Shown piece after piece: positions 1,783 through 64,000 of a DNA stretch of 64,000 nucleotides. The notes below the pieces were generated by a model. The model made no database searches, was not told the DNA's origin, and saw nothing but the letters and a program-made list of their open reading frames with translations. Source of the stretch: Polyangium mundeleinium (GTDB lineage: Bacteria; Myxococcota_A; Polyangia; Polyangiales; Polyangiaceae); the NCBI RefSeq assembly GCF_028369105.1, contig NZ_JAQNDO010000001.1, positions 1,364,001 to 1,428,000 on the forward strand, given 5' to 3'. Position numbers and translations under genes: made by a program. Each line of letters starts with the position of its first letter. Position 1 is the first letter of the stretch.

Positions 1783-2773
1783 GCCACGCCCTGGGCTTCC
1801 GGAAGGCGCACCACCTCTCCTTCCCCCCGCGCGAGAAGCGCCACCGGCATGAGTCTCCTGGTCCAAGCCCCGACCCACCGATGACCCTGCACGTTCAGGA
1901 TGTTACCATGACAGACGGGGGAAGCCGTCCTCATCGTGCACGTTATTATACCGTAGCAGCAGTACCTTGTCGCGTAAACGGGCCTTGATGCCTTATGTGC
2001 CAGCCGAGCCTTCGTCCTGAACCGGCCGGCAGTCTGGCCGATGACGGCGATCGTCGAGGAGTGGATGTATCCGCCGGGCCCGCCGGAAGATGACCGGCGG
2101 CCTTGCGGGCCGTCTCCGCGTCGCGGCACGTGGGTATAGGCAATGCGATAGCCCCTGCATTCGCCAGTACCGGGTGCTCTCGCGCGGCGATATCGCCGGC
2201 GTGGTTTCGGGGACCGGCTTCAGCAGAAGGACGCCGGGCGGGATCAACAAGACGTTTGGACATGGGCTTCCCTTTTCATCGGTTGCGTTTCCGTTCGGGC
2301 GCGTGCACCGGGGCAAGCAATACGGCCGCGTCCCGGGCATCACGGCCCTCGTCCGCCGCAGCCTGGGGAGCGACCTATGCAATCGATCGTGGACACGAGC
2401 GCACCCGTGGACAGGCACCTGCTCGCGGCGCGGAGCGCGGCTCGCTGGCCGGGCGCCTGTTCGTGGGGTTGTCGATCTTCGCGAGCGCCATCGTGCCGCC
2501 GTTCATCTGGTTCAACGCCGATCACGCGAACAGCCCCGCATGGCACGCGCTGGGGGGCTCGACGACCTGATCCTCCCGGGCCGGGGCGGGCGCACAAAAG
2601 CACTTGACATTCGCGAACCCCTTTGCGCTTCCTAGTCCTCGATACCGCTCCACGCATCCAGCGTCGGACCGGCGGCGGGGCGCGCAGCAGGAAATCAACG
2701 GCTGCTAGGACGAGCAGACGGTTTCGGTTATTGTTAGGGTATCCGCCAGGCGGCGAGCCGTGGCGGAAGGTGC
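1783..2773. other. ~1 kb intergenic region between divergent kinase genes
   Basis: The stretch separates two divergently transcribed kinase genes and must hold both promoters. Open frames on both strands look like compositional shadows and carry no recognisable domain, except a possible remnant near 2377-2570 listed separately. A TTGACA hexamer lies at 2604-2609, but I see no convincing -10 box at standard spacing. A purine-rich GGAAGG sits just before the start codon at 2774. Confidence 0.5.
2377..2570 (+). pseudogene. Possible remnant of a small membrane protein (DUF6640-like?)
   Basis: The first frame starts with ATG at 2377 and reads MQSIVDTSAPVDR. The second frame, without its own start, reads a hydrophobic stretch followed by FNADHANSPAWHALGG and ends at 2570. 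Joined by one frameshift near 2440 they would give a ~65-residue piece with one membrane helix and a conserved-looking polar tail. The 'N-x-x-H-x-x-(N/S)P-x-W' tail recalls the first helix boundary of DUF6640-type small membrane proteins, but this is memory-based and weak. It may simply be non-coding. Confidence 0.2.
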
Positions 2774-4129
2774 ATGAGCGCGCTTACAGAAGGCAGCATC
2801 ATCGCCGGCCGATACCGGCTCGGTCGCCCGCTCGCGAAGGGCGGCATGGGCTCCGTCTTTTTCGCGGAGCATCTCCAGCTCCGCACCGGCGTGGCCATCA
2901 AGCTCATGGCGCCCGAGCTCGCCGCCTCCGCCGACGCGCGCGCACGCTTCGAGCGTGAGGCGCAGGCGTCCGCGGTCATCAAGAGCCCGAACGTCGTGCA
3001 GGTGTACGACTACGGCGTGGAGGGCGACTGCCCGTACATCGTGATGGAGCTGCTCGACGGCGAGGACCTCGAGCGCCGGCTCGTCCGCGTCGGGCGTCTC
3101 TCGCTCGCGGCCACGATGGACATCGTGCAACAGGTCTGCAAGGCCCTTCGTCGCGCGCACGAGCTGGCGCTCGTGCACCGCGATCTGAAGCCCGCGAACC
3201 TCTTCTTGTCGCGCCACGACGACGAGGAACTCGTCAAGATCCTCGACTTCGGGATCGCGAAGGCGAAAGGTCCGGTGCTCGCTGGAAACGCCACCAGGAC
3301 GGGCACGCTGATCGGATCGCCGCAATACATGAGCCCGGAGCAGGTGCGGCGCGGGAAAGATGTCGATCCCCGCAGCGATCTGTGGTCGCTCGGGGTGATC
3401 GCCTACCGCTGCGTGACGGGCCGGCTGCCGTTCTCCGGCGAAGAGCTCGGCGATCTCCTCGTCGAGATCTGCACGGACCCGATCCCTGCCCCATCGAGCA
3501 TCCACGGCGCTCTCGGCCCCGACGTGGACCAGTTCTTCGAGCGCGCGCTGGCACGCGACGTAGGCAAGCGATTCCAAAGCGCGGGCGAGTTCGCCGACGC
3601 GTTCGCGGCGGTGGCGAGGGGCAGCGGGCCAATCCCGATGAGCACCTCGTCGCAGAATAACGCGCTCGGCCCGCCGCCGGAGCCGAGCGCAGCAGCCGTC
3701 AGCGCGCCGGAATCAGCTTCGGGGGCGGGCGGAACGCTTTCGCCCTCGGGGCTCAGCCTCGCGCAATCGCCGGCGAGCAAGCCGCGCACGATCGCGGTGG
3801 CGGTCAGCATCGCTCTTGCTGCCGGCCTCGCCGTCGGGCTGGGCGCGTTCGCGTGGTCGCGCGCCTCGGCCCCGAGCGCGCCTGTTTCCAATCCGGAAGG
3901 TGAAGGAAACCGTCCGGCGTCTTCCGAGCCCAGTCCCGCCGGAGCCGAGAGCGCCGCGGCGTCCGCGAGCGCCACGGCGTCCGCGAGCGCCACGGCGTCC
4001 GCGAGCGCCACGGCGTCCGCGAGCGCCACGGGGGGGGGCGCAAAGGCGCCGCCCGGAAGGCCCGTCAAGGGCGGGGTCCAGCTGAAAAAAGGGACCAAGA
4101 CAGGCCATGATCCGCTCGACCATCAGTGA
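2774..4129 (+). CDS. Membrane-anchored Ser/Thr protein kinase
   Basis: This 451-residue Hanks-type kinase has a glycine loop (AKGGMGSVFF), VAIKLM with Lys43, HRDLKPAN near residue 135, DFGIAK near 157 and YMSPEQ. All catalytic residues are present. After the kinase domain (~15-280) comes a low-complexity linker, one transmembrane helix at ~339-361 and an outer tail holding four perfect ASASAT units before a basic end. This is the usual PknB-like layout in myxobacteria: cytoplasmic kinase, single pass, extracytoplasmic tail without a recognised sensor fold. The start at 2774 is preceded by GGAAGG. Its 3' end overlaps the next gene by 23 bases, which implies co-translation with the TPR/PEGA protein and a shared signalling role. 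Confidence 0.93.
   Translation: MSALTEGSIIAGRYRLGRPLAKGGMGSVFFAEHLQLRTGVAIKLMAPELAASADARARFEREAQASAVIKSPNVVQVYDYGVEGDCPYIVMELLDGEDLERRLVRVGRLSLAATMDIVQQVCKALRRAHELALVHRDLKPANLFLSRHDDEELVKILDFGIAKAKGPVLAGNATRTGTLIGSPQYMSPEQVRRGKDVDPRSDLWSLGVIAYRCVTGRLPFSGEELGDLLVEICTDPIPAPSSIHGALGPDVDQFFERALARDVGKRFQSAGEFADAFAAVARGSGPIPMSTSSQNNALGPPPEPSAAAVSAPESASGAGGTLSPSGLSLAQSPASKPRTIAVAVSIALAAGLAVGLGAFAWSRASAPSAPVSNPEGEGNRPASSEPSPAGAESAAASASATASASATASASATASASATGGGAKAPPGRPVKGGVQLKKGTKTGHDPLDHQ
3959..4030 (+). repeat. Four perfect 18-bp tandem repeats inside the kinase tail
   Basis: Four head-to-tail copies of the unit GCGTCCGCGAGCGCCACG occupy 3959-4030 and encode ASASAT x4. Copies are identical at the DNA level, so copy-number change by slippage would keep the frame. 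It lies in the extracytoplasmic tail. Confidence 0.9.
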
Positions 4130-5102
4130 AGCCGCGCGCCGCGGGGCACGCTTCCGGCCAGCCGTGGTATGGGTGACATGGGCGATCGTCACGGGTTCGG
4201 CCGCGGCGCACGCCGAGCCCGTGAAATCGGATCCAGCGGCCGCGGAGGCGCTGTTCAAAGCGGGCCGCGACCTCGTCAAGAAGGGTGACTATGCTGCGGG
4301 CTGCCCCAAGTTCGAGGCTGCGCTCGAGCTGAATCCATCCGCCGGTACGATGCTCAACATCGCCAGGTGCCACGAGCATGACGGCAAGCTCGCCACCGCG
4401 TGGGAGGACTACCACCGCGCACAGACATTAAATCGCGAGACGGCGGGAGCTGCGCGCAAGCGGGAGCTCGACGACATCGCAAACCAGGGGATCAAGGACC
4501 TGGAGCCGCGCCTGCCCAGGCTGAGGGTCGTCGTCACCGCGCCTCCTGCCGGAATCGAAGTCTCGCGGGACGGCAAGGATTTGCCGAGCGCCGCGTGGGG
4601 TGAGGCGCTCCCCGTCGATCCGGGCAAACACGAGGTCAGCGCGCGGGCCCCGGGCCGCAAGCCTCGGACGGTCGAGGTGACACTCGAAGAAGGCAAGACG
4701 AGCACGGTCGAGATCGCGTTCGAGGTCGACACGACGCCCAGGGGCGGTGTCCCCGTCTGGGCGTGGATCGCCGGCGGCGCCGGGCTCGCGCTCGCGGGCG
4801 TCAGCGTCTATTTCGTCTATGACAATCAGGCCGCGATCGACGCCCTGCATAAAAACTGCGACGCGAGCTACAATGGCACGTACTGCGCCTCGGGCTACGA
4901 CTACCGGGCGGACAACGGGCGCAAGAACCTCGATTTCGGCCTCGCCCTGGGGCTGGGCGGCGCAGGCGTCCTGGCGCTTGGCGCCGCCGTCTATGGGATC
5001 GCGACAGCGCCTCGCTCGAAACCGGCCGAGCCGCAGGGCGTCGCGGTGACGCCCTGGGTCGCTCCCGGCGCAGCCGGAGCATTGATTTCCGGGAGATTCT
5101 GA
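4107..5102 (+). CDS. TPR/PEGA-domain protein with C-terminal membrane segments
   Basis: 331 residues. An N-terminal signal-like segment ends near AHAEP (~35). A TPR-like helical region follows (~45-130, with FKAGRDLVKKGDYAAGCPKFE, ALELNPSAGTMLNIARCHE). A PEGA-like beta domain lies at ~135-205 (LRVVVTAPPAGIEVSRDGK, GKHEVSARAPGRK), and two hydrophobic helices come at ~213-233 and ~275-298. PEGA domains are surface-associated in known families. The reading frame overlaps the kinase gene by 23 bases and its TGA shares a base with the next ATG (TGATG), so all three genes look like one translational unit. It is probably a periplasmic or envelope partner of the kinase. The start could instead be a slightly later in-frame codon, but the hydrophobic N-terminus supports this one. 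Confidence 0.85.
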   Translation: MIRSTISEAARRGARFRPAVVWVTWAIVTGSAAAHAEPVKSDPAAAEALFKAGRDLVKKGDYAAGCPKFEAALELNPSAGTMLNIARCHEHDGKLATAWEDYHRAQTLNRETAGAARKRELDDIANQGIKDLEPRLPRLRVVVTAPPAGIEVSRDGKDLPSAAWGEALPVDPGKHEVSARAPGRKPRTVEVTLEEGKTSTVEIAFEVDTTPRGGVPVWAWIAGGAGLALAGVSVYFVYDNQAAIDALHKNCDASYNGTYCASGYDYRADNGRKNLDFGLALGLGGAGVLALGAAVYGIATAPRSKPAEPQGVAVTPWVAPGAAGALISGRF

Positions 5103-6055
5103 TGGCTACTTCGAAGTGGTCTCTCCTGTGCTCCCTTTCCCTGGCAGTGGGGCCGGCCGGTTGCATCGCCGACGTCGTGCCGAACTCCTCGCTCGCGAGC
5201 TGCACGGATCTGGCGGCCACGTGCGGGCCCAGGAGCGACGAGATATGCTGCGCGAACTCGCTTGTCACGGGGGGGGAGTACGAGCGCCTCGACCTGGACC
5301 AGAACAAGTCTTACCCGGCCACGGTGAGCGACTTTCGGCTGGATCGCTTCGAGGTGACGGTCGGGCGGTTTCGAAGGTTCTTGCGCGAGTATCCTGGTAA
5401 TATTCCGGCCGCGGGCGAGGGGGCTCATCCGAACATAGAGAACAGCGGGTGGTACGATTCCTGGCCGTTACCGCAGGACCAGGCCGAGCTCACCGCTTCT
5501 TTGAAGTGCAGTCAATACTACCAGACCTGGACGGACGTGCCCGGCGACGGTGAACACAAGCCCATCAATTGCGTCAACTGGTATGTCGCGTTCGCCTTTT
5601 GCGCCTGGGATGGCGGCCGATTGCCGACCGAGGCCGAGTGGAACTATGCAGCGGCCCGCGGCAGCGAAGAGACGAATTACCCGTGGGGGAGCGCCGCGCC
5701 GGACGATGACCATGCGGTGTATTGCCCGAATTACTCGGAGGTGGATCAGGGCTGTCCGACCGCGACGCTCGCCGACATCTCGGACGTCGGCTCCAGGTCT
5801 CCCGCGGGCGATGGGAAATGGGGACAATCCGACCTGGCTGGCAACATGCGCGAGTGGACCCTCGACTTCCACGACGCGTACCCGGACAATTGCGACGATT
5901 GCGCCAACCTGACGAATGTCATCGGGGGCCGCGAGGCGCGCGGCGGCGACTGGAACAACGACGCGACGAGCCTGAGCTCGTTTTTCCGGATCGCCTACGA
6001 CCCTACGGCTGCGACGAGCTGGGTGGGGTTTCGCTGCGCTCGCCGGCCGCGCTGA
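5102..6055 (+). CDS. Formylglycine-generating-enzyme (SUMF1) family lipoprotein
   Basis: 317 residues. The hydrophobic N-terminus ends at a Cys (residue 21, PAGC), suggesting a lipoprotein, though the lipobox is imperfect. From ~75 to the end it matches the FGE-sulfatase fold: LDRFEVTVGRFRRFL, PINCVNWYVAFAFCAW, GRLPTEAEWNYAA, YPWG, LAGNMREWTLD, RGGDWNND and GFRCAR. In myxobacteria many such proteins are kinase-linked or surface proteins rather than true sulfatase activators. Neither a copper-site cysteine pair nor a sulfatase partner is apparent nearby, so catalysis is uncertain. The gene starts inside the stop of the preceding gene and ends 4 bases from the convergent secretion-tip operon. 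Confidence 0.88.
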   Translation: MATSKWSLLCSLSLAVGPAGCIADVVPNSSLASCTDLAATCGPRSDEICCANSLVTGGEYERLDLDQNKSYPATVSDFRLDRFEVTVGRFRRFLREYPGNIPAAGEGAHPNIENSGWYDSWPLPQDQAELTASLKCSQYYQTWTDVPGDGEHKPINCVNWYVAFAFCAWDGGRLPTEAEWNYAAARGSEETNYPWGSAAPDDDHAVYCPNYSEVDQGCPTATLADISDVGSRSPAGDGKWGQSDLAGNMREWTLDFHDAYPDNCDDCANLTNVIGGREARGGDWNNDATSLSSFFRIAYDPTAATSWVGFRCARRPR

Positions 6056-6059
6056 GGTA

Positions 6060-6506
6060 TCAGGGCGCGTTGCACATGATGATGTGCTCGACGGCGTCGA
6101 TGAGGATCTGCTCCACCCGCGGTGCCCCGATGGCTGCGGCGTCGGCGAAGCGTTCGAGATCGAAGGGCGGCGGGTTGACCTCCAGATAGGCGAGGATCTG
6201 GAGCGGATATCCTTTCCAGCGGATCACGCAGAAGCCGACCACGTTTCGGCTCCCCGTGGCCCCGCGGAGGCCGAGGGCGAGCTCGATGCTCGGGGTGTCG
6301 TGCCCTTGATCGAGGAGGATCCGGGCCTCGTGCCCGGCACGCCGGAGCTCGGCCGCGAACTCCTCCATCTTCGGCCGGAGCAGATCGTCGCGGAGGGCCG
6401 CGAAGCTCCGGAGGAAATCGGCCTCGTCCGGCGTCCGCCCCTCGGCGATGCGCCGCGCGTAGCGCGCGGTGAGCCGCTCGAGGCGGAGGCGGTTCTGCTC
6501 TTTCAT
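6060..6506 (-). CDS. Small protein of unknown function closing the secretion-tip operon
   Basis: 148 residues from an ATG at 6506 (MKEQNRLRLERLTARYARR). The frame is open further upstream, but that portion is the antisense-like second frame of the DUF4150 gene. The N-terminal half is a charged helix, and the C-terminal half has a mixed beta pattern (GFCVIRWKGYPLQILAYLEV). It lies 11 bases after the DUF4150/PAAR-like gene, so it is probably its partner: an immunity protein, chaperone or cargo. I recognise no family. Confidence 0.7.
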   Translation of the reverse strand: MKEQNRLRLERLTARYARRIAEGRTPDEADFLRSFAALRDDLLRPKMEEFAAELRRAGHEARILLDQGHDTPSIELALGLRGATGSRNVVGFCVIRWKGYPLQILAYLEVNPPPFDLERFADAAAIGAPRVEQILIDAVEHIIMCNAP

Positions 6507-6517
6507 GCGCTGCGTCG

Positions 6518-6907
6518 TCAGGGAGCGAGGATCAGCACCTTGGTCTGGCTCGGAGCGATGGTCATGCCCCGGGCGTTGGTGCGGTTCTGCATGGTGGGGC
6601 TCGTCAATCGCGTCACCGGCGCGCCCTTGATGAGCACCTTGCGGGCTCCCATCACGTGCCGCGAGGTGCTCATCACCGAGCGCGAGAGCACGCCCCCGTT
6701 GATGCCCGGGTTGTCCCCGTTGGTCATGGGCACCTTGGTGCGCATGTTGTGCGCCGGCGCGCACACGAACAGGACCTTGTAGACCGCAGAGACCGCCATG
6801 GGGTTGGCGGCGAAGTTGGGATAGGGGATCGGCGTGGGCCCCGGGGGCGTGAGGCATACGTCGGGGATCGCGAAGGCCATGCCCCCGCGCTGGGTGTTGG
6901 CAAACAT
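6518..6907 (-). CDS. DUF4150/PAAR-like spike-tip protein
   Basis: 129 residues beginning MFANTQRGGMAFAIPDVCLTP, followed by PYPNFA and repeated glycine-rich strands (NGDNPGINGGVLS, KVLIKGAPVTRLTSPT). This is the DUF4150 PAAR-like pattern. The family caps T6SS or related contractile spikes and sharpens the VgrG trimer. Here it has no toxin extension, so it is a pure tip. It sits between DUF3540 and a small partner gene in the same operon as a VgrG. Confidence 0.85.
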   Translation of the reverse strand: MFANTQRGGMAFAIPDVCLTPPGPTPIPYPNFAANPMAVSAVYKVLFVCAPAHNMRTKVPMTNGDNPGINGGVLSRSVMSTSRHVMGARKVLIKGAPVTRLTSPTMQNRTNARGMTIAPSQTKVLILAP

Positions 6908-6917
6908 GGGATCCTCC

Positions 6918-7568
6918 TCAACCGATGTGGACCTGACCGCCGTCGATCTTGGTCAACTCTCCGCTCGTCACCAGGGTGGTTTGCGATTTGATGTTCACCG
7001 CAGCCTTGGCCGAGACCTCGTAATACCGGGCCCGGACCTGCTCCGACTCGGCGATGAAGCGATAGGCCCGCGCCACGCGCGACACCCAGCGATCGGCCAC
7101 CGACTCCACCGATCGGGCCATGGTCTTGACGTGATCGATCTTCGCCACCAGCCGATCGCCGAGGTAGCTCATGGCCTCCACGGCCAGGACCCCTTCCCGG
7201 GCGTGGACCCGCACCTTGCCCGCGGCCAGCGTGGTCTCGCCGGGCGTGGCCATGCACACGCCGCTCTGGGCGCGGATCGTCACCTTGCCCGCGGGCGCGC
7301 TCATTTCCAGATCGCCCTCGGCCACGAGCCGCGTCGCCCCGCCGCCCTTGCGCTCCAGCACCGCGAGCACGTGGCAGCCCTCGTCGTGGAGGGCGAGGAG
7401 CACCAGGTCCCCGAGCTCGGGCTCGACCAGGCAGCTCACCGCCCTCTGGGCCTCGTACTCGCCCGAGCCCACGCGCACCTGGAGGCGCTTGCCCAGGATC
7501 GCGGTCACCGTGCCGACCTCCTGGGTGGCCAGGGTCTCGGTCCGCTGTCTAGCCAAGTTGTCTCGCAT
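6918..7568 (-). CDS. DUF3540 family protein (T6SS-associated)
   Basis: 216 residues. The N-terminus has an OB/beta-barrel-like segment (GTVTAILGKRLQVRVGSGEY) with LVEPELGDLVLLALHDEG, then strands typical of VgrG-stalk-like beta repeats (EGDLEMSAPAGKVTIRAQSG) and a helical end. This matches DUF3540, found almost always beside DUF2169, pentapeptide and DUF4150 genes in T6SS-linked clusters. Its exact role is unknown; it is probably an adaptor or stalk component. Spacing to neighbours is 10 and 30 bases. Confidence 0.78.
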   Translation of the reverse strand: MRDNLARQRTETLATQEVGTVTAILGKRLQVRVGSGEYEAQRAVSCLVEPELGDLVLLALHDEGCHVLAVLERKGGGATRLVAEGDLEMSAPAGKVTIRAQSGVCMATPGETTLAAGKVRVHAREGVLAVEAMSYLGDRLVAKIDHVKTMARSVESVADRWVSRVARAYRFIAESEQVRARYYEVSAKAAVNIKSQTTLVTSGELTKIDGGQVHIG

Positions 7569-7598
7569 CGCTCGTCTCCATATCTCGCAAGAGGCCTC

Positions 7599-8642
7599 TC
7601 AAGGAGACCAACGCTCTGCTTCCAGCAGCTCCTCGTCATCGCCAAGGATCCCGGCCCGGCTCGTGAACACCGCTCCTTCGTCGCGCGTCTGGTGAAAGCG
7701 GGCGCGGAAGAGCTTGGCCTGCGACAGATCCGCTTCTTCCACGCCGGCGTGGGAGAAATCGGCGTAGGTGAGATCGGCGCCGCGGAGGCTCGCGAGCTTG
7801 CACGCGGCGCGCTGGAAATTGGCCTGGTAGAGGCAGGCGTCGGCGAAATTCGCGGCCTCGAGGTTGGCCTTTTGAAAGACCGCCTGCCGGGCGTGTAGTC
7901 CCTTGGCCGAGGCCCCGCCGAGCCGGGCCTCTGCGAACATCGCCCGCTCGGCGTTGGCGCCGTCGAGCTTGGCGCCGATGAGCTTGGCGCCCTTGAAGTT
8001 GGTCTGCACGAGCTCAGCTTTGCGCAGATCGCAGCCGCTGAGATCGGCCTCGTCGAGCATGGTGAAGGACAGGTGCATCCCGGAGAGATCCTGCCCCCGG
8101 AGCTTGGCTCCGCTGAGCACCGAGAGATGCATCCTGGCCCCGCGCAGGCTGGCGCTGGAGAGGTCGGCCCCGATCAGGCAGCAGCGCTCGAGCTCGGCCT
8201 CATCGAGGGCGATCTTCTCGAGCTCGGTCTCGACGAGCACGAAGCGATCGAGCTTGGCTTTGCGAAAGCTGGTCTCGGCGGCGCGGCCCTGGACCACGGT
8301 GGCGATGCTCAGATCCGCGCCCTCGAAGGAGGCGCGGGAGAGATCGCAATCGACGAATTTGGCGTCCACGAGATCGCTGCCCGGGAGCGTGGTGCCCTGC
8401 ATGGCGCACTTGTAGAACGAGGTGTGGCGGGCCTTGACCCCGGCGAGATCGGCGCCGCCGAGATCGCAGGCGTTGAAGATCGACTCGCTGATCTTCGCGC
8501 CCGCGAGCTTCGCGCGCCGAAAGTCCACGCCCTCGAAGACCACGCCCGCGAGATCGAGGCCGGCGAGATCGAGGCCGGCGAGATCGGCTCCGGTGATGAT
8601 CTCGCCCTCGGCGATGGCCGCGAGGAGCTCGTCGCCGTTCAT
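7599..8642 (-). CDS. Pentapeptide-repeat protein
   Basis: 347 residues, nearly all pentapeptide repeats of the A(D/N)LxX type (GADLAGLDLAGLDLAGVVF, LSGCDLRKAELVQTNF). The fold is a right-handed quadrilateral beta-helix. Its ATG overlaps the stop of the upstream DUF2169-pentapeptide gene (ATGA), so the two are co-translated. In these clusters such proteins are thought to bind or decorate the effector/tip; that is inference from neighbourhood. Confidence 0.9.
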   Translation of the reverse strand: MNGDELLAAIAEGEIITGADLAGLDLAGLDLAGVVFEGVDFRRAKLAGAKISESIFNACDLGGADLAGVKARHTSFYKCAMQGTTLPGSDLVDAKFVDCDLSRASFEGADLSIATVVQGRAAETSFRKAKLDRFVLVETELEKIALDEAELERCCLIGADLSSASLRGARMHLSVLSGAKLRGQDLSGMHLSFTMLDEADLSGCDLRKAELVQTNFKGAKLIGAKLDGANAERAMFAEARLGGASAKGLHARQAVFQKANLEAANFADACLYQANFQRAACKLASLRGADLTYADFSHAGVEEADLSQAKLFRARFHQTRDEGAVFTSRAGILGDDEELLEAERWSP

Positions 8643-11326
8643 CCTTCTTGCCTCGTGAACACCACCTGCTTCACCAGGGCCCCGGCGAAGCTGGTGCGGT
8701 CATCGCCGATGGTGTGAAGGAGGCTGGCGCCGAAGAGGTTGGCCTTCTCGAAGATCGCGCCCGGTACCTTGGCCTTGTCGAGGATGGCCTCCATGAGGTT
8801 GGCCTCGCGGAGATCGGCGCCGCTGAGATCGGCCTCGGCGAAGCGCGCCTCCCGGGCCGCGAGCTGCGTGAGGCGCGCACCGCGGAGCACGGCCTCGCTG
8901 AAGTCCGCGCCCTCGGCCTGGGCTCTCTCGAAGTTGGCGCCTTCCAGGTTCACGCCGCTGAGGTTGGCCTCTTCGAGATCGGCCGCCGAGAAATCCGCGC
9001 CCGGCAGCGCCGAGCTGGCGATGATGCACAGGCCGCGGGCCCGCGCTTCGCGGAAGGAGGCTTTCTCTCCGGCGAAGTCCAGGAAGCTCGTCCCTTCGAG
9101 GTGGGCGCCGTCGAAGTTCGCAAGGGCTCCCTTGCATTGCAGGAAGGTCGCCCCGCCGAGCTGGGCCCCGGTGAAGCGGGCCTCGGTGAGATCGAGCTCG
9201 AAGAACTGCACCTCGCGGGCGTCGGCGTCGGTGAAGTCGGCGCCGTTCACCAGGGTTTCGAAAAACCCGGCGCCGGTGAGATCGGCCCCGGCGAGCTGCG
9301 CGCCATCGAGGCGAGCCTTGTAGAGGACCGCATCGTGGAGATTGGCGCCGGCGAAGCGCACGCCCGAGGCCTCGGTGAAGCCGAGGTTCGCCTCCACGAG
9401 CTTGGTGTCCTCGAAGCGCGCGCCCTTCACGTTGGCGCGGGTCAGGACCGCGCCCGAGAGATCCGCCCCGGTAAAGTCACAGTCCGAGAGATCCGCGCCT
9501 TCGAGCAGGGCTTCGCGGAGATCCGCCTCGGCGAAGCGCAGACCGTGGAGATCCGCGCCGGTGAGATCGCGCCGGGCGAGCGACTCGCCCGCGCCGAGCG
9601 CCGCCTCGACCTCGGCGCGCAACGTGGCCTTTTCTGCATCCGAGAGGGCCTCGGTAGGGGGGAACATGTGCGCGTTGGCGCGATAGGCCTCGAGCGAGGA
9701 GGCCTCTACCTCCCGGAGCTCGGCGACGAATTTCGGATCCGCGATTTTGGCTTCGAGGTCCGGCATCGGCGAGCCGCCTTTGCGCGCTGCCTCGGCGAGC
9801 TCGCGCATCTGGGTGAGCTCGGCGTCGGCGCGGAACCGGGGCGGGCCGCCACCCCCCTGCTCTGATCGCTTGACGAGGGCGTCGAAATCGAGCCCCTGTG
9901 CGGCGCAATCGCGGCGCGCCTTGGCCTCCGTCTCCTTGGCTCGCGCTTCGCTCTCCCTCTCCATTGCGGCCGACTCGGCGTCGGCACGTGCAATGTAATC
10001 CGGCAGATCATCGAGCGAGGACGGCGGCCGCATGGCCTTGACGGGCTCTTTGGGGAGTGTCGCGTCGGGATCGAGACCAGCGGCGCGGATTTCTTCGCGG
10101 GCTCGCTCGAGATCGCGCTCGGCCCGGAGCTCGGCGCGCTTCTCGAGGATCTCTTCGTCCTCGAGGAGGTCGTCCATGTCGGTGCTCAGCTCTTCCTCGA
10201 AGAGCGGCGCGCCGGGGTCCGGCGGAGGCAACAGATCTCGATCGCGGAGCGCGTTGATGGCGCCCTTTTCCTCGTCGAGGCGCGCGGCGAGGGCGTCGCG
10301 GTAATGCTCGACGGGCTTCGGCGTATCCGCCTTTTCCAGGGCGCCGAGGAGCAGCGCCACGTCGCCGGCGTCGTTCTCGCTGACCTCGACGACCCCGCGA
10401 AAGACGGCAATTCCGCGCTCCAAGTTGGGGAGGAGAATCACGGTCTCGAGGCGCGTCGGCACCTCGCGCAACGCCCCTTCGGCGCTCACCGTCTCGGCCG
10501 TCTCGGCGCTGGAGACGAAGCAGCGAGCGCGAAGCAATGGGACCCGGCTCTCGAGGCGGGTCTTCCTGGCGTGGAGGTTCTCGAGCGCGATCGCCTCGCC
10601 TCCCTGGAAGTAGTCGCCGAGGCGCTGATCCGCGGGCGCCACCTGAAAGGCCTCGACGTCGATGTCGCTGGCAAAGCCGGGGAACTCTTTCTCCAGCCAG
10701 GCCGTGCCGTAGGTGCCCAGTTTGGCGATGCGCGCCTCGAGCGCGGGATCGAGCGCGCCGAAGCAGGCCGGCGGGGGCCGATCCCGGGGCGAGGTCATCA
10801 GGTGCCTGGGATCCTCGAGGTGGGGGAGACCATGCACCGACCTGCCATTCTCCTCCACCGGAGAGAGGCCCATTCCTCGAGGGTTCTGCGGATACGCGGG
10901 TCCGCCGAAGGCATTCTCCCACGAGAGGGCCATCTCCAGGATCGGCTCCGGATCCGTGGGCACGCCGTTACGCCACTGACGGGCGCCGACCACGTAAACC
11001 GTCTTGTCCACGAGGGGCTTTTCCGCGGGGCCAAGCACGACGCGCGCGGCAAAGGCAGGGCTCGGTCTCCCCCCGGGCGCGAAGGCGCTACCATAGAGGA
11101 GAACCTCACCGCGAGGCTTGGGCATGCACTCGTCGACGATGGGCGGGGCGCTCGCGCCCTTGCCCATCTCCGCCGTCGCCTTCTGCCACAGGGCCACTTC
11201 GGGCAGGGGCAGTTCCGGGGCCTCGAGAGGGAAGTACGCGAGCAGGCCGACGCTCAAATAGTGCTTACCGCGAACGGTAAAGACGCGCTGCAAGACGGAG
11301 ATGCGGCTCGGTTTGACGACACGCAT
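8639..11326 (-). CDS. DUF2169 domain fused to pentapeptide repeats
   Basis: 895 residues. Residues ~1-330 form a DUF2169 domain (KPSRISVLQRVFTVRGKHYL, ENAFGGPAYPQNPRGMG, DYFQGGEAIALENLH). A charged, coiled-coil-like middle (~370-520) follows, and residues ~565-890 are pentapeptide repeats (RRDLTGADLHGLRFAEADL). DUF2169 proteins are T6SS-associated chaperone/adaptor candidates. The gene begins 22 bases after vgrG and ends by ATGA overlap with the next pentapeptide gene. Confidence 0.9.
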   Translation of the reverse strand: MRVVKPSRISVLQRVFTVRGKHYLSVGLLAYFPLEAPELPLPEVALWQKATAEMGKGASAPPIVDECMPKPRGEVLLYGSAFAPGGRPSPAFAARVVLGPAEKPLVDKTVYVVGARQWRNGVPTDPEPILEMALSWENAFGGPAYPQNPRGMGLSPVEENGRSVHGLPHLEDPRHLMTSPRDRPPPACFGALDPALEARIAKLGTYGTAWLEKEFPGFASDIDVEAFQVAPADQRLGDYFQGGEAIALENLHARKTRLESRVPLLRARCFVSSAETAETVSAEGALREVPTRLETVILLPNLERGIAVFRGVVEVSENDAGDVALLLGALEKADTPKPVEHYRDALAARLDEEKGAINALRDRDLLPPPDPGAPLFEEELSTDMDDLLEDEEILEKRAELRAERDLERAREEIRAAGLDPDATLPKEPVKAMRPPSSLDDLPDYIARADAESAAMERESEARAKETEAKARRDCAAQGLDFDALVKRSEQGGGGPPRFRADAELTQMRELAEAARKGGSPMPDLEAKIADPKFVAELREVEASSLEAYRANAHMFPPTEALSDAEKATLRAEVEAALGAGESLARRDLTGADLHGLRFAEADLREALLEGADLSDCDFTGADLSGAVLTRANVKGARFEDTKLVEANLGFTEASGVRFAGANLHDAVLYKARLDGAQLAGADLTGAGFFETLVNGADFTDADAREVQFFELDLTEARFTGAQLGGATFLQCKGALANFDGAHLEGTSFLDFAGEKASFREARARGLCIIASSALPGADFSAADLEEANLSGVNLEGANFERAQAEGADFSEAVLRGARLTQLAAREARFAEADLSGADLREANLMEAILDKAKVPGAIFEKANLFGASLLHTIGDDRTSFAGALVKQVVFTRQEG

Positions 11327-57258: not shown

Positions 57259-59282
57259 CGAGCTGGCGGGACCCGATCCTCTCGCACTTCACGCCGGAGA
57301 TAGCGGCCGTATCAAGACTTACGATCGTTGCCGATCCAGACCAACTTCTCATGGAGCGGGGCATCGTCGACGGCGTTCGCGAGCGTGGCTTCGAGATCCT
57401 GGCCTTCGATGATCATGCGGTATTCCGCTACGCCTACGAACAGCGCTTCCGGCGCGTCTGGGATCGCGGAAAGCCGACCAAGCTCGTGGTCGTGCTGCGA
57501 GCCCCACGCGCCGAGCTCGATTGGTTACCCTATGATCTGCTCCAGGAAGCCAAGCGCGAGTCGCGGATTCTCTCGTTCAGCGTAGCCGAACTCTTTCCGA
57601 ACTTGCAGCCTCATGTGATCGCCGATCTCGATCGCAATGAACTAGAAGCCGTTCATGCAGCCCAAGCGTTGCACCAGCCAGGGCCACTCGGCGTCAATGC
57701 CACGCGGGAGTTTCTTCTCCGTCATGTGTTTGAGGTCGTCCCAGAGCTCATCCGGGCGCCGTCGGACCTGCTTCGTGTTCTCTTGAGGCGCCACCACAGT
57801 GGACGCGTGTTTCCCGCGTCACTAGACGAGCACCTGATTCGACAGCTGAAGAACAGCCGTCGATGGGACGCTTGGCCGCTAGACCAGATTGTTCCCAATC
57901 GTGCGGGCTTTCTCGGCTTTCTCCAGGAGCGCTGGCCGATCTTCGTGAAGCAGAACCGCTTCCCGCAGCCGGACACGTTGGCCGAGCCTCCCGCTTCGGA
58001 CCCCTGTGGGCTACGCTACCCGGGGCCGACCGACCTTCCCTTCGACCATGACGATGTTCGTGTCTACATGGACAACCTCTTCGTAGAGGGCCTTCTCACC
58101 CCGACGAAGGCGGTCTCCAAAGCGAGCGTTAGGGGGACCTGGTTGGCCGTGGGCGTGAGCGGCGACGAGGCCGCACGCGGCCGTAAGCTGCTCGACCTTC
58201 TAGAAGACAAGTTTCCTGGTGCCGACTCGGATCACCATCAATGGCTCCAGGCGGCACAACGCTGGGGAGAGGCGCTGGCGGTGCGATGGGCGCTCAAGCC
58301 TACGCTTGCCGAGCCCGAGCACCTACGTTTCGAGACTATGCACGAGCGCATCGAAGCCGCGTTCCAGGGGTGGCTTCAGTCGCACTATGCGTCGCTGTCT
58401 AGTCTAGCGCCGTGGCCCCGGCCGGTGATGGTGCACCACGTGCTGCGGTTCCTCGCGCACTCAGTGACGGGCACCTCTCCAGCCAAGCGGGCACTGATCG
58501 TCGTCGATGGCCTTTCGCTAGACCAGTGGGCCGTAATCCGTCCGGAACTCCCCGTGGGCACGTGGTTGATGGACGAGAACGCTCTCTTCGCGTGGGTGCC
58601 AACGCTCACGTCAGTCTCGCGCCAGTCGATCTTTGCTGCCGATCCACCTTTCTTCTTCGCTTCCAGCATTGGAACGACGAGCAAGGAGGAGCAGCACTGG
58701 TCACGGTTCTGGGAGGACCACGGGCTTCGAAAGAACGAGATCGCGTATTTGTGCCAGAAAGATCAGGAGCACGACGACCTCTTGCTGGAACGCGTCCGCG
58801 AGCACGCAGAACAACCGAAATGCAAAGCCTTGGCGATCGTTGTGGGCACTGTCGACCAGATGCTACACGGCGTGGTGACCGGCACGGACGGGCTGCACGC
58901 GAGCGTGCGCCACTGGGCCCAGCGGGGGTGGCTCGCGAAGCTCCTCGGGATGCTGCTCGACGCAGGCTTCGAGGTCTCGCTCACTGCCGACCACGGGAAC
59001 ATCGAGGGCCAAGGCATTGGCAAGCCGAATGTCGGTGAAACGGTGGAGCAACGTGGTGAGCGCGTTCACGTGTTCCGGGATGATCGCACGCGCGACAACG
59101 TCGCGGGACAGTATCCAGGAACTATCGTGTGGCCAACGATCGGTCTGCCAGACGAGTATCTGTCCTTGATCGCTCCTGCCCGTCGAGCGTTCATCAACTC
59201 GGGGAAACGAGCGGTCGTCCACGGCGGCGTATGCGTGGAAGAGGTCATCGTCCCGTTCGTTCGAATTACGAGGACGCCATGA
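57255..59282 (+). CDS. pglZ: BREX-3 PglZ alkaline-phosphatase-superfamily protein
   Basis: 675 residues from ATG 57255. The PglZ core has IVVDGLSLDQWAVI (~414, metal/nucleophile region) and SLTADHGNIEGQG (~575, second metal site). The N-terminal ~380 residues are BREX-specific. PglZ proteins act with BrxC and the methylase. ATGA overlaps on both sides show tight coupling. Confidence 0.92.
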   Translation: MTSWRDPILSHFTPEIAAVSRLTIVADPDQLLMERGIVDGVRERGFEILAFDDHAVFRYAYEQRFRRVWDRGKPTKLVVVLRAPRAELDWLPYDLLQEAKRESRILSFSVAELFPNLQPHVIADLDRNELEAVHAAQALHQPGPLGVNATREFLLRHVFEVVPELIRAPSDLLRVLLRRHHSGRVFPASLDEHLIRQLKNSRRWDAWPLDQIVPNRAGFLGFLQERWPIFVKQNRFPQPDTLAEPPASDPCGLRYPGPTDLPFDHDDVRVYMDNLFVEGLLTPTKAVSKASVRGTWLAVGVSGDEAARGRKLLDLLEDKFPGADSDHHQWLQAAQRWGEALAVRWALKPTLAEPEHLRFETMHERIEAAFQGWLQSHYASLSSLAPWPRPVMVHHVLRFLAHSVTGTSPAKRALIVVDGLSLDQWAVIRPELPVGTWLMDENALFAWVPTLTSVSRQSIFAADPPFFFASSIGTTSKEEQHWSRFWEDHGLRKNEIAYLCQKDQEHDDLLLERVREHAEQPKCKALAIVVGTVDQMLHGVVTGTDGLHASVRHWAQRGWLAKLLGMLLDAGFEVSLTADHGNIEGQGIGKPNVGETVEQRGERVHVFRDDRTRDNVAGQYPGTIVWPTIGLPDEYLSLIAPARRAFINSGKRAVVHGGVCVEEVIVPFVRITRTP

Positions 59283-60085
59283 CCCAGGGAGAGCGACGAA
59301 CGATCGGGTTTGACCGTCCGGTTCAACTCGAGTGGCTCGATGCCCTGGCCTATCGACTCGCCGCTGGAGCTTCCGCCAAGGAGGCTCGCGAGGTCATCTG
59401 GAACCTGCTCGACGGCGTCGTCGCCGGAGAGACGCTCCAGAGCGCCCGGGGGAAGACTCTCACTGTCGTCTCACGCATTTGGTTGACCGTGCCACCCGGC
59501 GTGAGCCCAATGCGCGACGCCGCGTTGTTGCTGATCCGTCATGCCTCTGTGGAGGAGCGCCAGGCTATCCACTGGGCGCTGATGTCGGCAGCGTACACAT
59601 TCTTCGTTGACCTCGCATCGAGCATCGGCAAACTTATCGCGCTAAACGGTGAAATCTCGCTGTCGCAATTGACGCGGCGGCTGGTCGAGGTCTGGGGCGA
59701 TCGCTCGACCTTGCGACCCGCCGCGCAGCGCGTTGTGCGGTCGATGATCCGGTGGGGCGTGCTGCGGGAAGGCGAGCGACCGGGCCAATACCTTCCGCCT
59801 ACCAAGCGCATCGTCGTGTCGGCGGAGGTCTCTGAGCTTCTGCTCGAAGGGCTCCTCCTTGCCGCGGGAAGAGGAGGCATGCCGCTCAGCCAACTTCTCA
59901 TGCATCCGGCCGCGTTCCCATTCGAGCTTCGATTTGATCCAACCCGCCTGCGGAAGAGCGCGCGGCTGCGGCTTCACCGGCAGGGGGACCAAGCAGATTA
60001 TGTCGAGCGCGAGGAGACGCGACCGGCGTCATCCGCCAGGGCAATACCGAAAGAGCGACCAAGGGCAGCGAGGCGAGGGGGCTAG
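59279..60085 (+). CDS. brxA: BREX-3 BrxA-like protein (DUF1819-like)
   Basis: 268 residues from ATG 59279 (ATGA overlap with pglZ). GETLQSARGKTLTVVSRIWL, LLLIRHASVEERQAIHWALM, RSTLRPAAQRVVRSMIRWGV fit the BrxA/DUF1819 winged-helix fold that closes or opens BREX operons. The last ~40 residues are basic. Family assignment is by pattern and position; the symbol should be taken as likely. Confidence 0.75.
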   Translation: MTQGERRTIGFDRPVQLEWLDALAYRLAAGASAKEAREVIWNLLDGVVAGETLQSARGKTLTVVSRIWLTVPPGVSPMRDAALLLIRHASVEERQAIHWALMSAAYTFFVDLASSIGKLIALNGEISLSQLTRRLVEVWGDRSTLRPAAQRVVRSMIRWGVLREGERPGQYLPPTKRIVVSAEVSELLLEGLLLAAGRGGMPLSQLLMHPAAFPFELRFDPTRLRKSARLRLHRQGDQADYVEREETRPASSARAIPKERPRAARRGG

Positions 60086-60320: not shown

Positions 60321-61211
60321 ATGCTCCCCCACCTCACCGTCCCCCGCACCACCCCCGACCTCGACGGCCTCGCCTGTGCCATCGCGTACGCCGAGCTCCT
60401 CCTTGCCGAGTCGATCCCCGCACGCCCTTGGATCGCCGGCTCTCCCGACCCCGAAGCCCGCTTCGTCGTCGACCAGCTGGGCATCCCCCTCGACCACACG
60501 CCGCCGCCAAACGACTGCGCCTTCATCCTCGTCGACGCCAGCGACCTCCGCGGCATGCCCCCGTCGCTCGACCCTCTCCGCGTCGTCGAGGTCATCGACC
60601 ACCGCCTGCACCACCGCGCCGCCGAGCTCTTCCCGAACGCCGCCCTCTGCATCGAGCCCGTCGGCGCGGCAGCGACCCTCATCGCCGAGCGTTACCCCTC
60701 GCTCGGCATCCCCCCGTCGCCCCTCGCCGCGCAGCTCCTCCAGGCCGCGATCATGTCCAACACCCAGGCCCTACGCGGCACGATCACCACCGAGCGCGAC
60801 CGCGCGGCGTACCGCACCCTCGCGGCGCTCTTCCCGCTCGACGACGCGTTCATCGCAGCCCAGTTCGACGCTCGCCGGCGCGCCATCCTGCTCGACCTGC
60901 GCGCCGCCATCGCGCTCGAGCGCAAGGACTTCGATCACGCGGATGGCGCCTACATCCTGTCGCAGCTCGAGTTCCCGGGCGCGCGGCATCACGTCGACGA
61001 CTGCTTGCCCCACGTCGAGCAGCTCGGCTCGCGAGCCATGCTGAACCTCGTCGACGTGGAGGACGCGGTCTCGCTCCTGCTCGTCCCCGATCCGACCTGC
61101 CGCGCGTGGGTCTCCCGTCGCGCGGGCCTTCACTTCGACGGCCCTGTCGCAATCTCGCCTGGTATCCTGCTTCGCAAGCAGATCGTCGCCCGACTGGAGG
61201 GGCGGTCATGA
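60321..61211 (+). CDS. DHH/DHHA2 phosphoesterase (family II pyrophosphatase-like)
   Basis: 296 residues from ATG 60321. The frame is open upstream but non-coding there. Motif 1 is TTPDLDGLACAIAYAELL (Asp13, Asp15), motif 2 EVIDHRLHH (~92), then EPVGAAATLIAERY. The C-terminal PGILLRKQIVARLE is the DHHA2 signature of manganese-dependent inorganic pyrophosphatases and related phosphoesterases. The DHH triad reads DHR, so specificity may differ from true PPases. It is coupled to the viperin gene by ATGA, implying that it acts on the same nucleotide chemistry, for example PPi or a nucleotide product. Confidence 0.82.
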   Translation: MLPHLTVPRTTPDLDGLACAIAYAELLLAESIPARPWIAGSPDPEARFVVDQLGIPLDHTPPPNDCAFILVDASDLRGMPPSLDPLRVVEVIDHRLHHRAAELFPNAALCIEPVGAAATLIAERYPSLGIPPSPLAAQLLQAAIMSNTQALRGTITTERDRAAYRTLAALFPLDDAFIAAQFDARRRAILLDLRAAIALERKDFDHADGAYILSQLEFPGARHHVDDCLPHVEQLGSRAMLNLVDVEDAVSLLLVPDPTCRAWVSRRAGLHFDGPVAISPGILLRKQIVARLEGRS

Positions 61212-62152
61212 CGCGAGCAGAAAATTGGAAGAACGCAGGCCCCGGTGGGCTCCCCGTGCCCTTGAACGTCTCGTGGCACCTCTGGCCCGACTGCGATCTC
61301 GCATGCACCTACTGCTACGCGACGTTCCGCGACATTCCGCGGACGCTCAGCAAGAAAGAAGCGATCCGCGTCCTCGATCTGTTTCGCGAGGCCGGGACGG
61401 AGAAGGTCACGTTCGTCGGCGGCGAGCCGCTGCTCTGTCCGCACATCGAAGAGCTCATCGCGCACGCGAAGAGCATCGGCCTCGTGACCATGCTCGTGAC
61501 GAACGGCACGCGGCTCGCCAAGGAGCAGCTGCTTCACCGGATCGTGCCGCTGCTCGACTGGGTCTCGCTCAGCATCGACGGGAGCACGCCCGAGCTGATG
61601 GCCGAGATGGGCCGAGGAAATGCGGCCTTCTGGAAGCATTGTATCCGCTGCTGGAAGAAGCTCTCCGAGTACCCGCACCTCCGCCTGAAGATCAACACCG
61701 TGGTGACCCGGCAGAACGTGCACGATGACATGCGCGCGCTCATCCGCGAGCTCCGCCCCGCGCGCTGGAAGGTGTTCCAGGTGCTGCCGGTGAAGGGCCA
61801 GAACGACGGCAAGGTCGAGCCTCTGCTCATCAAGCGGGAAGAGTTCGACACCTACGTCGCTCGGCACCGCGAACTCGACGCGGAAGGGCTCGGGCCCGTC
61901 GCCGAGGACAATCGCGCGCTCACGGGCACGTACCTCATGCTGGATGCGCTGGGCAGGCTCTTCAGCAACAAGACGGGCGAGCACGTTTACACGGAGTCGG
62001 TGCTCGACGTGGGTGTCTGGGAGGTCGTGCGGCAGGTGGGCTGGGACGTGGAGGGGTTCCTCGAGCGGGGCGGGATTTACGGCTGGAAACACGACGCCAT
62101 CCGTCCCGCAGCCGAGGCGCTCGTCCCGCTGCGACGCCGCGGACCGGGCTAA
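61208..62152 (+). CDS. Prokaryotic viperin (antiviral radical SAM nucleotide dehydratase)
   Basis: 314 residues from ATG 61208. The radical SAM cluster motif is CDLACTYCY (Cys29, Cys33, Cys36). Viperin-type landmarks follow: EKVTFVGGEPLL, MLVTNGTRL, LSIDGSTPE, KINTVVTRQNVHDDM, the diagnostic RWKVFQVLPVKGQNDGKV and the C-terminal GRLFSNKTGEHVYTESVLDV with FLERGGIYGW. Known pVips convert CTP, UTP or GTP to 3'-deoxy-3',4'-didehydro nucleotides that terminate phage RNA synthesis. Its start overlaps the DHH gene stop; its stop overlaps the convergent dikinase-like gene by 4 bases. Confidence 0.88.
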   Translation: MTRAENWKNAGPGGLPVPLNVSWHLWPDCDLACTYCYATFRDIPRTLSKKEAIRVLDLFREAGTEKVTFVGGEPLLCPHIEELIAHAKSIGLVTMLVTNGTRLAKEQLLHRIVPLLDWVSLSIDGSTPELMAEMGRGNAAFWKHCIRCWKKLSEYPHLRLKINTVVTRQNVHDDMRALIRELRPARWKVFQVLPVKGQNDGKVEPLLIKREEFDTYVARHRELDAEGLGPVAEDNRALTGTYLMLDALGRLFSNKTGEHVYTESVLDVGVWEVVRQVGWDVEGFLERGGIYGWKHDAIRPAAEALVPLRRRGPG

Positions 62153-63972
62153 AGCTTGCGCAGCGTCGGAGCAAATCCCGGGCTGACGTCGAGGACCACA
62201 CGATCGCCGTCGGACACTTCCTGTCGCACGTTTGGCAGGATGAACCCCGGCACGCCGTGCTCGCGCATCACCACGGCGAGGTGGCAGAGCAACGAGCCCT
62301 CCTCGAAGACCATCCCGAGCGTGCCGGGCGGCGCTGCGTAGACGATCTCGTCGAGCACGTGGAAGGGCCTTCGCGCCACGAGGATCAGCGGCTCGCCAGC
62401 GCCTCCGCTCGCGGCGCTGCGCGTGTTGTGGATGTGGCGCTCGATGCTCGCGCGCACAGCGCTCGGGTCGTGATCGACGAACTGCACGCGACCGACGACG
62501 CGCCCCTCGCAGATCACGTCGTCGCGCAGAGAGCGGGGAGCAACCGCGTTGCCCTCGTAGAGATCCACCAGGAAAAATTCGCCCGCAGGCGTATAGCCGA
62601 ACTCGATCCCGGCCTTGGGATGATGCGTCGCGAGCCGCTGGGCGATATCGAAGATCTGCTTCCTCTCGGCGGGCGAGAGCTCGGGAGGGTCGTCGACGGG
62701 TTCTTCCCGAACGTTCCCATGCTCGACGACCGCCTGCGTTGCCTGTTTTCCGAGACGCACGGATCGCACTACGCCGCCGGGGCCGATCCGGTAGGTCGTC
62801 GCGTCGGCGATGCCCTTGCTGATGAAGTGGCCATGCACGATCTCGACGACCACGTCGCCCTCTTCGCGTCGGACCGCGATACCCGTCCGCGCCGTGGGTT
62901 GCAGCTCCTTGAGCAGGAACGCGAACCACGCGTCGTGTCCTGAAAGCTCCTCGATCAGTGCCCGAATGCAAGCCTCGGCAGCGTTTCCTGCGCCAAACTT
63001 TCGGACGATCTTGTCTTGCCAGCGAAAAGGGACGAGCAGCACCGCAATGAGCTCTCCCCACGAGCGCAAAGCCTCCGCTACCGCCGCAACATGCTGGGCC
63101 TCAGGCTTCTGGCACACCGCGACAAAGCCTCGCGAGATCGGGATGTCGAGCTCCTCTGCGAGGAGCCGAAGCGTCACCTTGTCATGCCGCCGAACAGCAT
63201 CCGGCAAGCGCGCCGCATGCGCTCGATCCACGGGAACGAGCTCGATCCCCGGCTCGCCACGAAGTCCACGAAGGCCGGTGATCGGTCGGGCTTGCAGCGC
63301 GATCACGTCGTGGTTCACGAGCGCCCATTCGACGTCCGTGGGCCCTCCCACGGCCTGCTCTGCACGACGCGCGAGCTTGTCGAGGGCGTCGAGCCCATCG
63401 ACGCCGAGGCGCGCCGCGACGGCCTGTCGGCCTTGCTCATCGAGCGAAACACGCAGCTCCGGCGCGGCGCCGTCGACCAGATTGCGCAGATGTCCCTGCA
63501 CGACCTCGATCACGGCTGCACCAACACCGTCGCGCGGATCCCTCGTGAAGAGCAGCCCGGACCATTGCGGGTGAATCATCTGCTGAACGATGACGGCAGG
63601 GAGTCGTTCAGCGGCTTTTGCAGCCTGGGCCCGCATGGATCGCCCTGAGCTTCGGCACCTTGCAATGGCCTCGAGCACGCGCGCGGCCGTCGCTTCGACA
63701 TCGAGCTCGGATTCGAAGAGCCCCGCGAGGGATCGAGCACCGCCGTCCTCGAGCGCCCCCGACGAACGGACCGCGACCGTCACGCAGCCGGACCGCTCGA
63801 CGAGCGCGCGCAAGGCTTCGGCGATCTCCGCCTCGGAAGGCTCCTCGCCCGCGAGAACCACAAACCCATCGGGCACGGCCACGCCGAGGCTCCGCAGCCG
63901 GAACAACCCCGCCGCCTTCCCGCCAACCCGCTCGGGCACGCTCCCGGCTCCGAGCTCGACATATGCCGTCAC
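62149..63972 (-). CDS. PEP/pyruvate-binding dikinase-like protein
   Basis: 607 residues from GTG 63972. The N-terminal ATP-grasp part (~10-240) has GGKAAGLFRLRSLGVAVPDG, VAVRSSGALEDGGARSLAGL, VIVQQMIHPQWSGLLFTRDP and VEWALVNHDVIALQARPI. The middle is unassigned. The C-terminal PEP-utiliser mobile domain carries EGSLLCHLAVVMREHGVPGF, with the phospho-accepting His preceded by Cys rather than the usual Ser or Thr. The length is shorter than PEP synthase (~790). Such proteins phosphorylate pyruvate, antibiotics or other acceptors. It is convergent with viperin and starts inside the stop of a gene leaving the window. Confidence 0.85.
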   Translation of the reverse strand: MTAYVELGAGSVPERVGGKAAGLFRLRSLGVAVPDGFVVLAGEEPSEAEIAEALRALVERSGCVTVAVRSSGALEDGGARSLAGLFESELDVEATAARVLEAIARCRSSGRSMRAQAAKAAERLPAVIVQQMIHPQWSGLLFTRDPRDGVGAAVIEVVQGHLRNLVDGAAPELRVSLDEQGRQAVAARLGVDGLDALDKLARRAEQAVGGPTDVEWALVNHDVIALQARPITGLRGLRGEPGIELVPVDRAHAARLPDAVRRHDKVTLRLLAEELDIPISRGFVAVCQKPEAQHVAAVAEALRSWGELIAVLLVPFRWQDKIVRKFGAGNAAEACIRALIEELSGHDAWFAFLLKELQPTARTGIAVRREEGDVVVEIVHGHFISKGIADATTYRIGPGGVVRSVRLGKQATQAVVEHGNVREEPVDDPPELSPAERKQIFDIAQRLATHHPKAGIEFGYTPAGEFFLVDLYEGNAVAPRSLRDDVICEGRVVGRVQFVDHDPSAVRASIERHIHNTRSAASGGAGEPLILVARRPFHVLDEIVYAAPPGTLGMVFEEGSLLCHLAVVMREHGVPGFILPNVRQEVSDGDRVVLDVSPGFAPTLRKL

Positions 63973-64000
63973 GAGGCCCCCGCGCTCAGCAACTCGCGCA
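63969..64000 (-). CDS. 3' end of a gene continuing beyond the window
   Basis: Ten codons ending RELLSAGAS then TGA at 63971-63969, overlapping the dikinase-like GTG start (GTGA). Only inferred from the overlap pattern; product unknown. Confidence 0.35.
   Translation of the reverse strand, partial: RELLSAGAS

Follow-up and report, generated by a model that had tools for sequence, protein, structure and literature searches.

A rare four-gene set built around a prokaryotic viperin in Polyangium mundeleinium and its possible role in anti-phage defense

Results

A viperin gene and three conserved partners

We analyzed a 64,000-nucleotide stretch of the Polyangium mundeleinium genome (the window; contig NZ_JAQNDO010000001.1 of assembly GCF_028369105.1, here C1; C1:1364001-1428000 of a 13.25 Mb genome), at the end of which a prokaryotic viperin gene is accompanied by genes for a DHH/DHHA2-fold protein, a dikinase-like phosphotransferase, and a PP-loop protein. 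The four genes very probably form one functional unit with viperin, and a role of this module against phages is likely. Our fuller explanation, an anti-phage module built on viperin in which the partner proteins act on the same nucleotide, has in our judgment an even chance of being correct. The four-gene set is rare. In a conservation sample of 284 genomes of the phylum (Myxococcota), orthologs of the three partner proteins (DHH, E below 1e-70; dikinase-like, E below 1e-140; PP-loop) were confined to exactly three, namely the window's own genome and two metagenome-assembled genomes (MAGs), G133 and G147, of another Myxococcota class; viperins above the family cut-off were found in 25 of the 284.

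Both MAGs retain the order and the convergent layout, with the DHH and viperin genes followed by the dikinase-like and PP-loop genes on the opposite strand. Protein identities between the modules were 49-51% for DHH, 71-73% for viperin, 48-49% for the dikinase-like protein, and about 66% for the PP-loop protein, and divergence between the loci peaked at third codon positions, as expected of selected proteins. Judging from these sequences, reading frames and gene order kept in two other loci at 48-73% protein identity, with third-codon-position divergence dominant, are not a matter of chance. Outside the four genes, the window flanks and the other loci had no genes in common except for a short generic helicase motif. 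The DHH/viperin pair and the PP-loop/dikinase-like pair were never found apart among the 284 genomes. Weak matches to DHH (E above 1e-9) and to the dikinase-like protein (E above 1e-31) occurred across the phylum but covered one domain, and were taken as housekeeping pyrophosphatases and phosphoenolpyruvate (PEP) synthases. An endonuclease/exonuclease/phosphatase-family gene lies directly before the DHH gene in both MAG loci (~5175-5901 and 8212-8661, shortened in the latter) and is absent from the window.

Outside Myxococcota, the searches covered plasmids, phages, and viral contigs, together with a narrow pattern scan of genomes. No PP-loop or DHH relatives were detected in viral contigs or annotated phages, where the dikinase-like protein was matched in its N-terminal ATP-grasp part only and viperin by weak radical-SAM matches only. 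The contig scan of genomes with the PP-loop alignment returned only the two known MAGs; it used two peptide patterns and says little on distant relatives.

The module consists of two convergent pairs, DHH to viperin (60321-62152, forward strand) and PP-loop to dikinase-like (63972-62149, reverse strand) (Table 1). Within each pair the genes overlap by 4 bases, the viperin start with the DHH stop (ATGA) and the dikinase-like start with the PP-loop stop (GTGA). The DHH, viperin, and dikinase-like reading frames had been described in the initial annotation with the same coordinates and strands. That unit of three genes stands but was incomplete, having missed the PP-loop gene, most of which lies past the window end and was found from the sequence beyond it. 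A scan for promoters and terminators was uninformative.

Table 1. Genes of the viperin module and the adjoining brxA gene (window coordinates)
Product	Position	Strand	Length	Remarks
DHH/DHHA2-fold protein, family-II pyrophosphatase superfamily	60321..61211	+	296 aa	substituted active site (RxxPDLD / VDAS / DHR / SNT / LRK)
Prokaryotic viperin, radical SAM	61208..62152	+	314 aa	C29-x3-C33-x2-C36
Dikinase-like phosphotransferase	62149..63972	-	607 aa	PPDK_N ATP-grasp, middle domain of unproven fold, C-terminal phospho-His domain
PP-loop protein	63969..64000	-	293 aa	3' tail inside the window; whole gene 63969-64850 in window numbering, C1:1427969-1428850
BrxA	59129..60085	+		last BREX gene before the module; context, outside the conserved unit

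The module viperins form a separate clade

The window viperin scored 252.6 bits against NF038283 (cut-off 180) and was called pVip by PADLOC, with the best model being 'not associated with kinases'. When aligned to solved viperins, the three module viperins were invariant at C29, C33, and C36 and in LDVGVWE...WDV. In a tree of 27 viperins they formed one clade on a long stem with a support of 100/100. Other prokaryotic viperins often travel with a nucleotide kinase, as is also reflected in the PADLOC model names; no nucleotide kinase was seen among the neighbors of the window viperin. The window genome contains a second, distant viperin (C1:974680-975507), which was placed elsewhere in the tree. 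Text searches of the literature returned no earlier notice of the gene set, the original prokaryotic-viperin papers being outside these searches, so that an earlier notice is possible.

A relative of the dikinase-like protein is paired with viperin on a Treponema plasmid

The dikinase-like protein matched PPDK_N with 107 bits and the PEP-utilizing mobile domain with 22.4 bits (cut-off 23.1; 27.9 in a relative). It contains the ATP-grasp motifs VAVRSSG, VQQM..SG, DVEW, and LQARPI as well as the phospho-histidine motif LLCHLAVVMRE, and His564 and the ATP-grasp residues are kept in seven sequences. In fold comparison, the N-terminal part matched PPDK and rifampin phosphotransferase with a Z of about 20. 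The middle region (about 245-480) is conserved in seven relatives and had no PDB match by sequence. A tandem ATP-grasp duplication is not claimed for this protein, as the hhalign probability was 6.7% over 56 columns. The protein ends after the His domain, and Pfam scans found no PEP/pyruvate-binding barrel. The earlier label of a PEP/pyruvate-binding dikinase-like protein thus holds for the ATP-grasp and phospho-His parts and is misleading as to PEP binding.

Full-length relatives (94% coverage, 25-29% identity) were found on plasmids of Rhodococcus, Treponema, and Enterococcus, which represent three other phyla, and each directly follows a nicotinamide-nucleotide-adenylyltransferase-like gene. 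On the Treponema saccharophilum plasmid NZ_AP025290 (5403-9766), genes for a nucleotidyltransferase, the dikinase-like protein, a cysteine desulfurase, and a viperin form an operon with overlapping open reading frames, and this viperin passes the family cut-off with 243 bits. Viperin and this dikinase-like family are therefore paired in at least two distant settings. The proposal of an expanded viperin system in the initial annotation was upheld, since in the searched Myxococcota the DHH and dikinase-like proteins are exclusive companions of one viperin clade and a dikinase-like gene is present again in the Treponema viperin operon.

On a Rhodococcus pyridinivorans plasmid, the gene next after the dikinase-like one encodes a DHH protein, and the neighborhood lacks a viperin. 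This adjacency suggests that the DHH and dikinase-like proteins are a reusable nucleotide/phosphate toolkit that is not restricted to viperin. Occurrence of the two genes in the same order without viperin had been named beforehand as a finding that would speak against a viperin system; the adjacency does occur in Rhodococcus, whereas the convergent order does not, the two genes being in tandem and accompanied by a nucleotidyltransferase gene. The corresponding position in R. opacus is taken by a gene for a MoaA-like radical SAM protein. A protein of ~490 amino acids with no NCBIfam match, perhaps a family of its own, precedes the nucleotidyltransferase and dikinase-like proteins in both R. pyridinivorans (3942-8756) and R. 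opacus (829-5737).

The DHH protein has an altered active site

The best matches of the DHH protein were models of Mn-dependent pyrophosphatases, all under their cut-offs (E 1.4e-23; 83.8 bits against NF003877, cut-off 283), and the DHH-DHHA2 fold is supported by the sequence profile. Aligned with canonical enzymes, the proteins of all three modules retain the substrate-binding K and RK but differ at three catalytic positions: motif I reads R/KxxPDLD where those enzymes have GHxxPDxD, without its His; DHH has become DHR, without its second His; and motif IV is SNT in place of SDT, without its Asp. Because three catalytic residues are replaced in every module, ordinary pyrophosphatase activity is unlikely, and the earlier description of the protein as pyrophosphatase-like, removing pyrophosphate (PPi), was not sustained. 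The signature of pyrophosphatases is a motif-I His together with a motif-III DHH, and that of prune proteins is DHH as motif II combined with DHR as motif III (PMC3022644). Motif II is VDAS and motif III is DHR in the module proteins, which thus match neither pyrophosphatases nor prune-type exopolyphosphatases.

Plasmid relatives were found in Halorussus (35% identity, DHR, SNT) and Rhodococcus (33% identity, DHH, SNT), so that the SNT change is common to all five DHH members seen. The gene on the Halorussus salilacus plasmid lies in a group (5773-10918) encoding a nucleoside monophosphate kinase, a P-loop protein that is HPr-kinase-like by eye, a 448-aa protein, a nucleotidyltransferase, and the DHR/SNT DHH protein, with no viperin. 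DHHA2 genes of enterobacterial plasmids were rejected as relatives; their neighbors, which encode enolase, a fluoride exporter, and a universal stress protein, point to fluoride resistance. On the E. coli plasmid NZ_CP067312, a DHHA2 pyrophosphatase gene appears to belong to a fluoride-resistance cluster, its neighbors being crcB and the genes for enolase, phosphoglycerate mutase, and universal stress protein.

The PP-loop protein is modeled with a YcfA-like fold

The PP-loop protein gave no useful match in Pfam, NCBIfam, or PDB by sequence. A match to VopV was discarded, as it was a summed score only and the scores per stretch were meaningless. A structural model was built from the three sequences, and its top 20 Foldseek matches were all YcfA. 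The fold Z of the model was 14.9 over 211 residues for YcfA, 11.4 for ThiI, 9.8 for QueC, 9.7 for Cap9, and 9.6 for QueH, which points to a PP-loop ATP-pyrophosphatase fold. PP-loop nucleotide thiolases of the YcfA/ThiI/TtuA type carry an SGGxDS-like loop and catalytic or cluster-binding cysteines; the module protein has an AGRDS loop, and C139-x2-C142 and C228 are invariant in the three sequences. The PP-loop enzyme YcfA is required to form 6-thioguanosine, and in TtuA a cluster is bound by three cysteines (PMC6225789). The arrangement of C139, C142, and C228 is reminiscent of these TtuA cysteines, and they may have equal roles. The tgs operons, which are related to YcfA, include a cysteine desulfurase, and YcfA belongs to an antimetabolite pathway (PMC7994395).

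The module lies in defense islands in two lineages

BREX genes for BrxC, PglX, BrxHI, PglZ, and BrxA lie directly upstream of the module on the window, and 235 bp separate the end of brxA (60085) from the start of the DHH gene on the same strand, in agreement with the initial annotation, which had the system adjoining BREX. Zac-like helicase and nuclease genes flank the G147 module on one side and Wadjet JetD/JetC on the other, and the G133 module is bordered on one side by a transposase-type region and a HARE-HTH gene. The PP-loop gene is absent from five congeneric genomes, a patchy spread typical of defense. This defense-island setting supports a defense role of the module without proving it. 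Just past the module, the window genome also contains a group-II-intron-type reverse transcriptase gene (C1:1430087-1431808), which was recognized by eye from its translation.

Discussion

We propose the following pathway, in which each reaction and the order of the steps are what we infer. Viperin, as expected from its family and the residues kept, would turn a nucleoside triphosphate (NTP) into a chain terminator, the 3'-deoxy-3',4'-didehydro (ddh) form of that nucleotide. In the manner of YcfA and ThiI, the PP-loop enzyme would adenylate a ring oxygen of the base and exchange it, with sulfur as the most likely substitute. The dikinase-like enzyme would transfer a phosphoryl group from ATP via the phospho-His at His564 to a nucleotide or a small acceptor, and would thereby stand in for the nucleotide kinase. 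The DHH-fold protein, with its altered metal site, may hydrolyze a substrate other than PPi, or may bind and control (sense) a phosphorylated intermediate. All three partners would work on the nucleotide that viperin alters, either ahead of the viperin reaction or following it. On this reading, the module would be a variant viperin system whose product is a ddh-nucleotide that has been processed further and possibly thiolated.

We consider it an even chance that the PP-loop protein acts on a nucleotide base. That sulfur is what it adds is possible, and we rate it somewhat below even; sulfur is indicated from two sides, by the cysteine desulfurase in Treponema and by the thiolase-like PP-loop protein in Myxococcota. 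More tentatively, some viperin systems may make doubly modified nucleotides, with the base altered by a PP-loop enzyme (probably thiolated), the sugar by viperin, and a dikinase-type enzyme replacing the nucleotide kinase, of which the Treponema operon would be an independent form.

Several points weigh against this explanation. Only three instances of the module are known, from two lineages; two of the three belong to a single family and come from MAGs, and in G133 the PP-loop gene is located at the edge of a separate contig. The PP-loop/dikinase-like pair is on a transcript separate from that of DHH/viperin, so that separate regulation is possible. Confidence in the PP-loop model is moderate (predicted local distance difference test (pLDDT) 63.5, predicted template modeling score 0.59), the protein shows no sequence-level link to YcfA, and no gene for a sulfur donor was found next to the Myxococcota modules. 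The model of the whole dikinase-like protein is poor (pLDDT 57).

The opposite strands of the two pairs would also suit two defense units lying side by side, one of DHH and viperin and the other an independent PP-loop/dikinase-like pair that makes another small molecule or modifies a protein, like the QueC-like Cap9 of CBASS or QatC of Qat. Defense systems have recruited PP-loop enzymes to modify proteins (PMC13329287), Cap9 is among the fold matches, and the dikinase-like genes of Rhodococcus and Enterococcus are not accompanied by viperin. However, the pairs are never apart among the 284 genomes, viperin and the dikinase-like protein share one operon in Treponema, and YcfA and ThiI outscore Cap9, so that we consider two units rather unlikely. 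If instead the DHH protein cleared PPi and the dikinase-like enzyme regenerated NTP, viperin would yield ordinary ddhNTP with a supporting crew. This would be in line with the family-II pyrophosphatase fold indicated by sequence, with the kept K and RK, and with the kinase-free viperin type of PADLOC, which makes a stand-in for the kinase plausible. It is nevertheless improbable, since the residues replaced in all three modules include the motif-I His and the second His of DHH that pyrophosphatases keep (PMC3022644), as well as the motif-IV Asp, and the PP-loop gene would be left with no role.

A biosynthetic cluster without a defense role, in which a viperin-type enzyme helps to make a natural product or cofactor resembling a nucleotide, would explain why the relatives are grouped with a nicotinamide-nucleotide-adenylyltransferase-like gene, and YcfA itself comes from an antimetabolite pathway (PMC7994395). 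Both well-assembled modules, however, adjoin known defense systems, and the absence of the PP-loop gene from the five congeneric genomes is the patchy spread typical of defense; we regard such a cluster as distinctly improbable.

So far, viperins are known to produce the ddh-forms of ordinary nucleotides. The fixed partnership of a viperin with a presumed base-modifying enzyme, a dikinase-like enzyme, and a catalytically altered DHH protein suggests bacterial synthesis of antiviral nucleotides of greater complexity. If true, such systems would be a source of new chain-terminator chemistry, and the combination of dikinase-like and viperin genes provides a genomic handle for finding them.

The DHH protein shares with family-II pyrophosphatases, PPX, and prune the fold and the substrate-binding K and RK, and with prune the DHR (PMC3022644), but has R/K and not H or N in motif I, no DHN/DHH in motif II, and SNT and not SDT in motif IV. 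Like rifampin phosphotransferase, PEP synthase, and PPDK, the dikinase-like protein combines an ATP-grasp domain with a swiveling phospho-His domain carrying its motif, whereas it has no detected rifampin- or PEP-binding domain and contains a conserved middle domain that is unplaced. As for 6-thioguanine synthesis by YcfA of Erwinia and the tgs operon of Staphylococcus, the PP-loop model fits YcfA best, and the Treponema cysteine desulfurase accompanies viperin and the dikinase-like protein as tgsA accompanies tgsB; in contrast, no sequence similarity was detected, and descriptions of those operons include neither viperin nor dikinase-like genes. With the pVip systems, the module shares a viperin above the NCBIfam and PADLOC thresholds, the radical-SAM cysteines, and the location in defense islands. 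It differs from them in having no adjoining nucleotide kinase, in its fixed set of three further genes, and in the separate, long-stemmed clade of its viperins.

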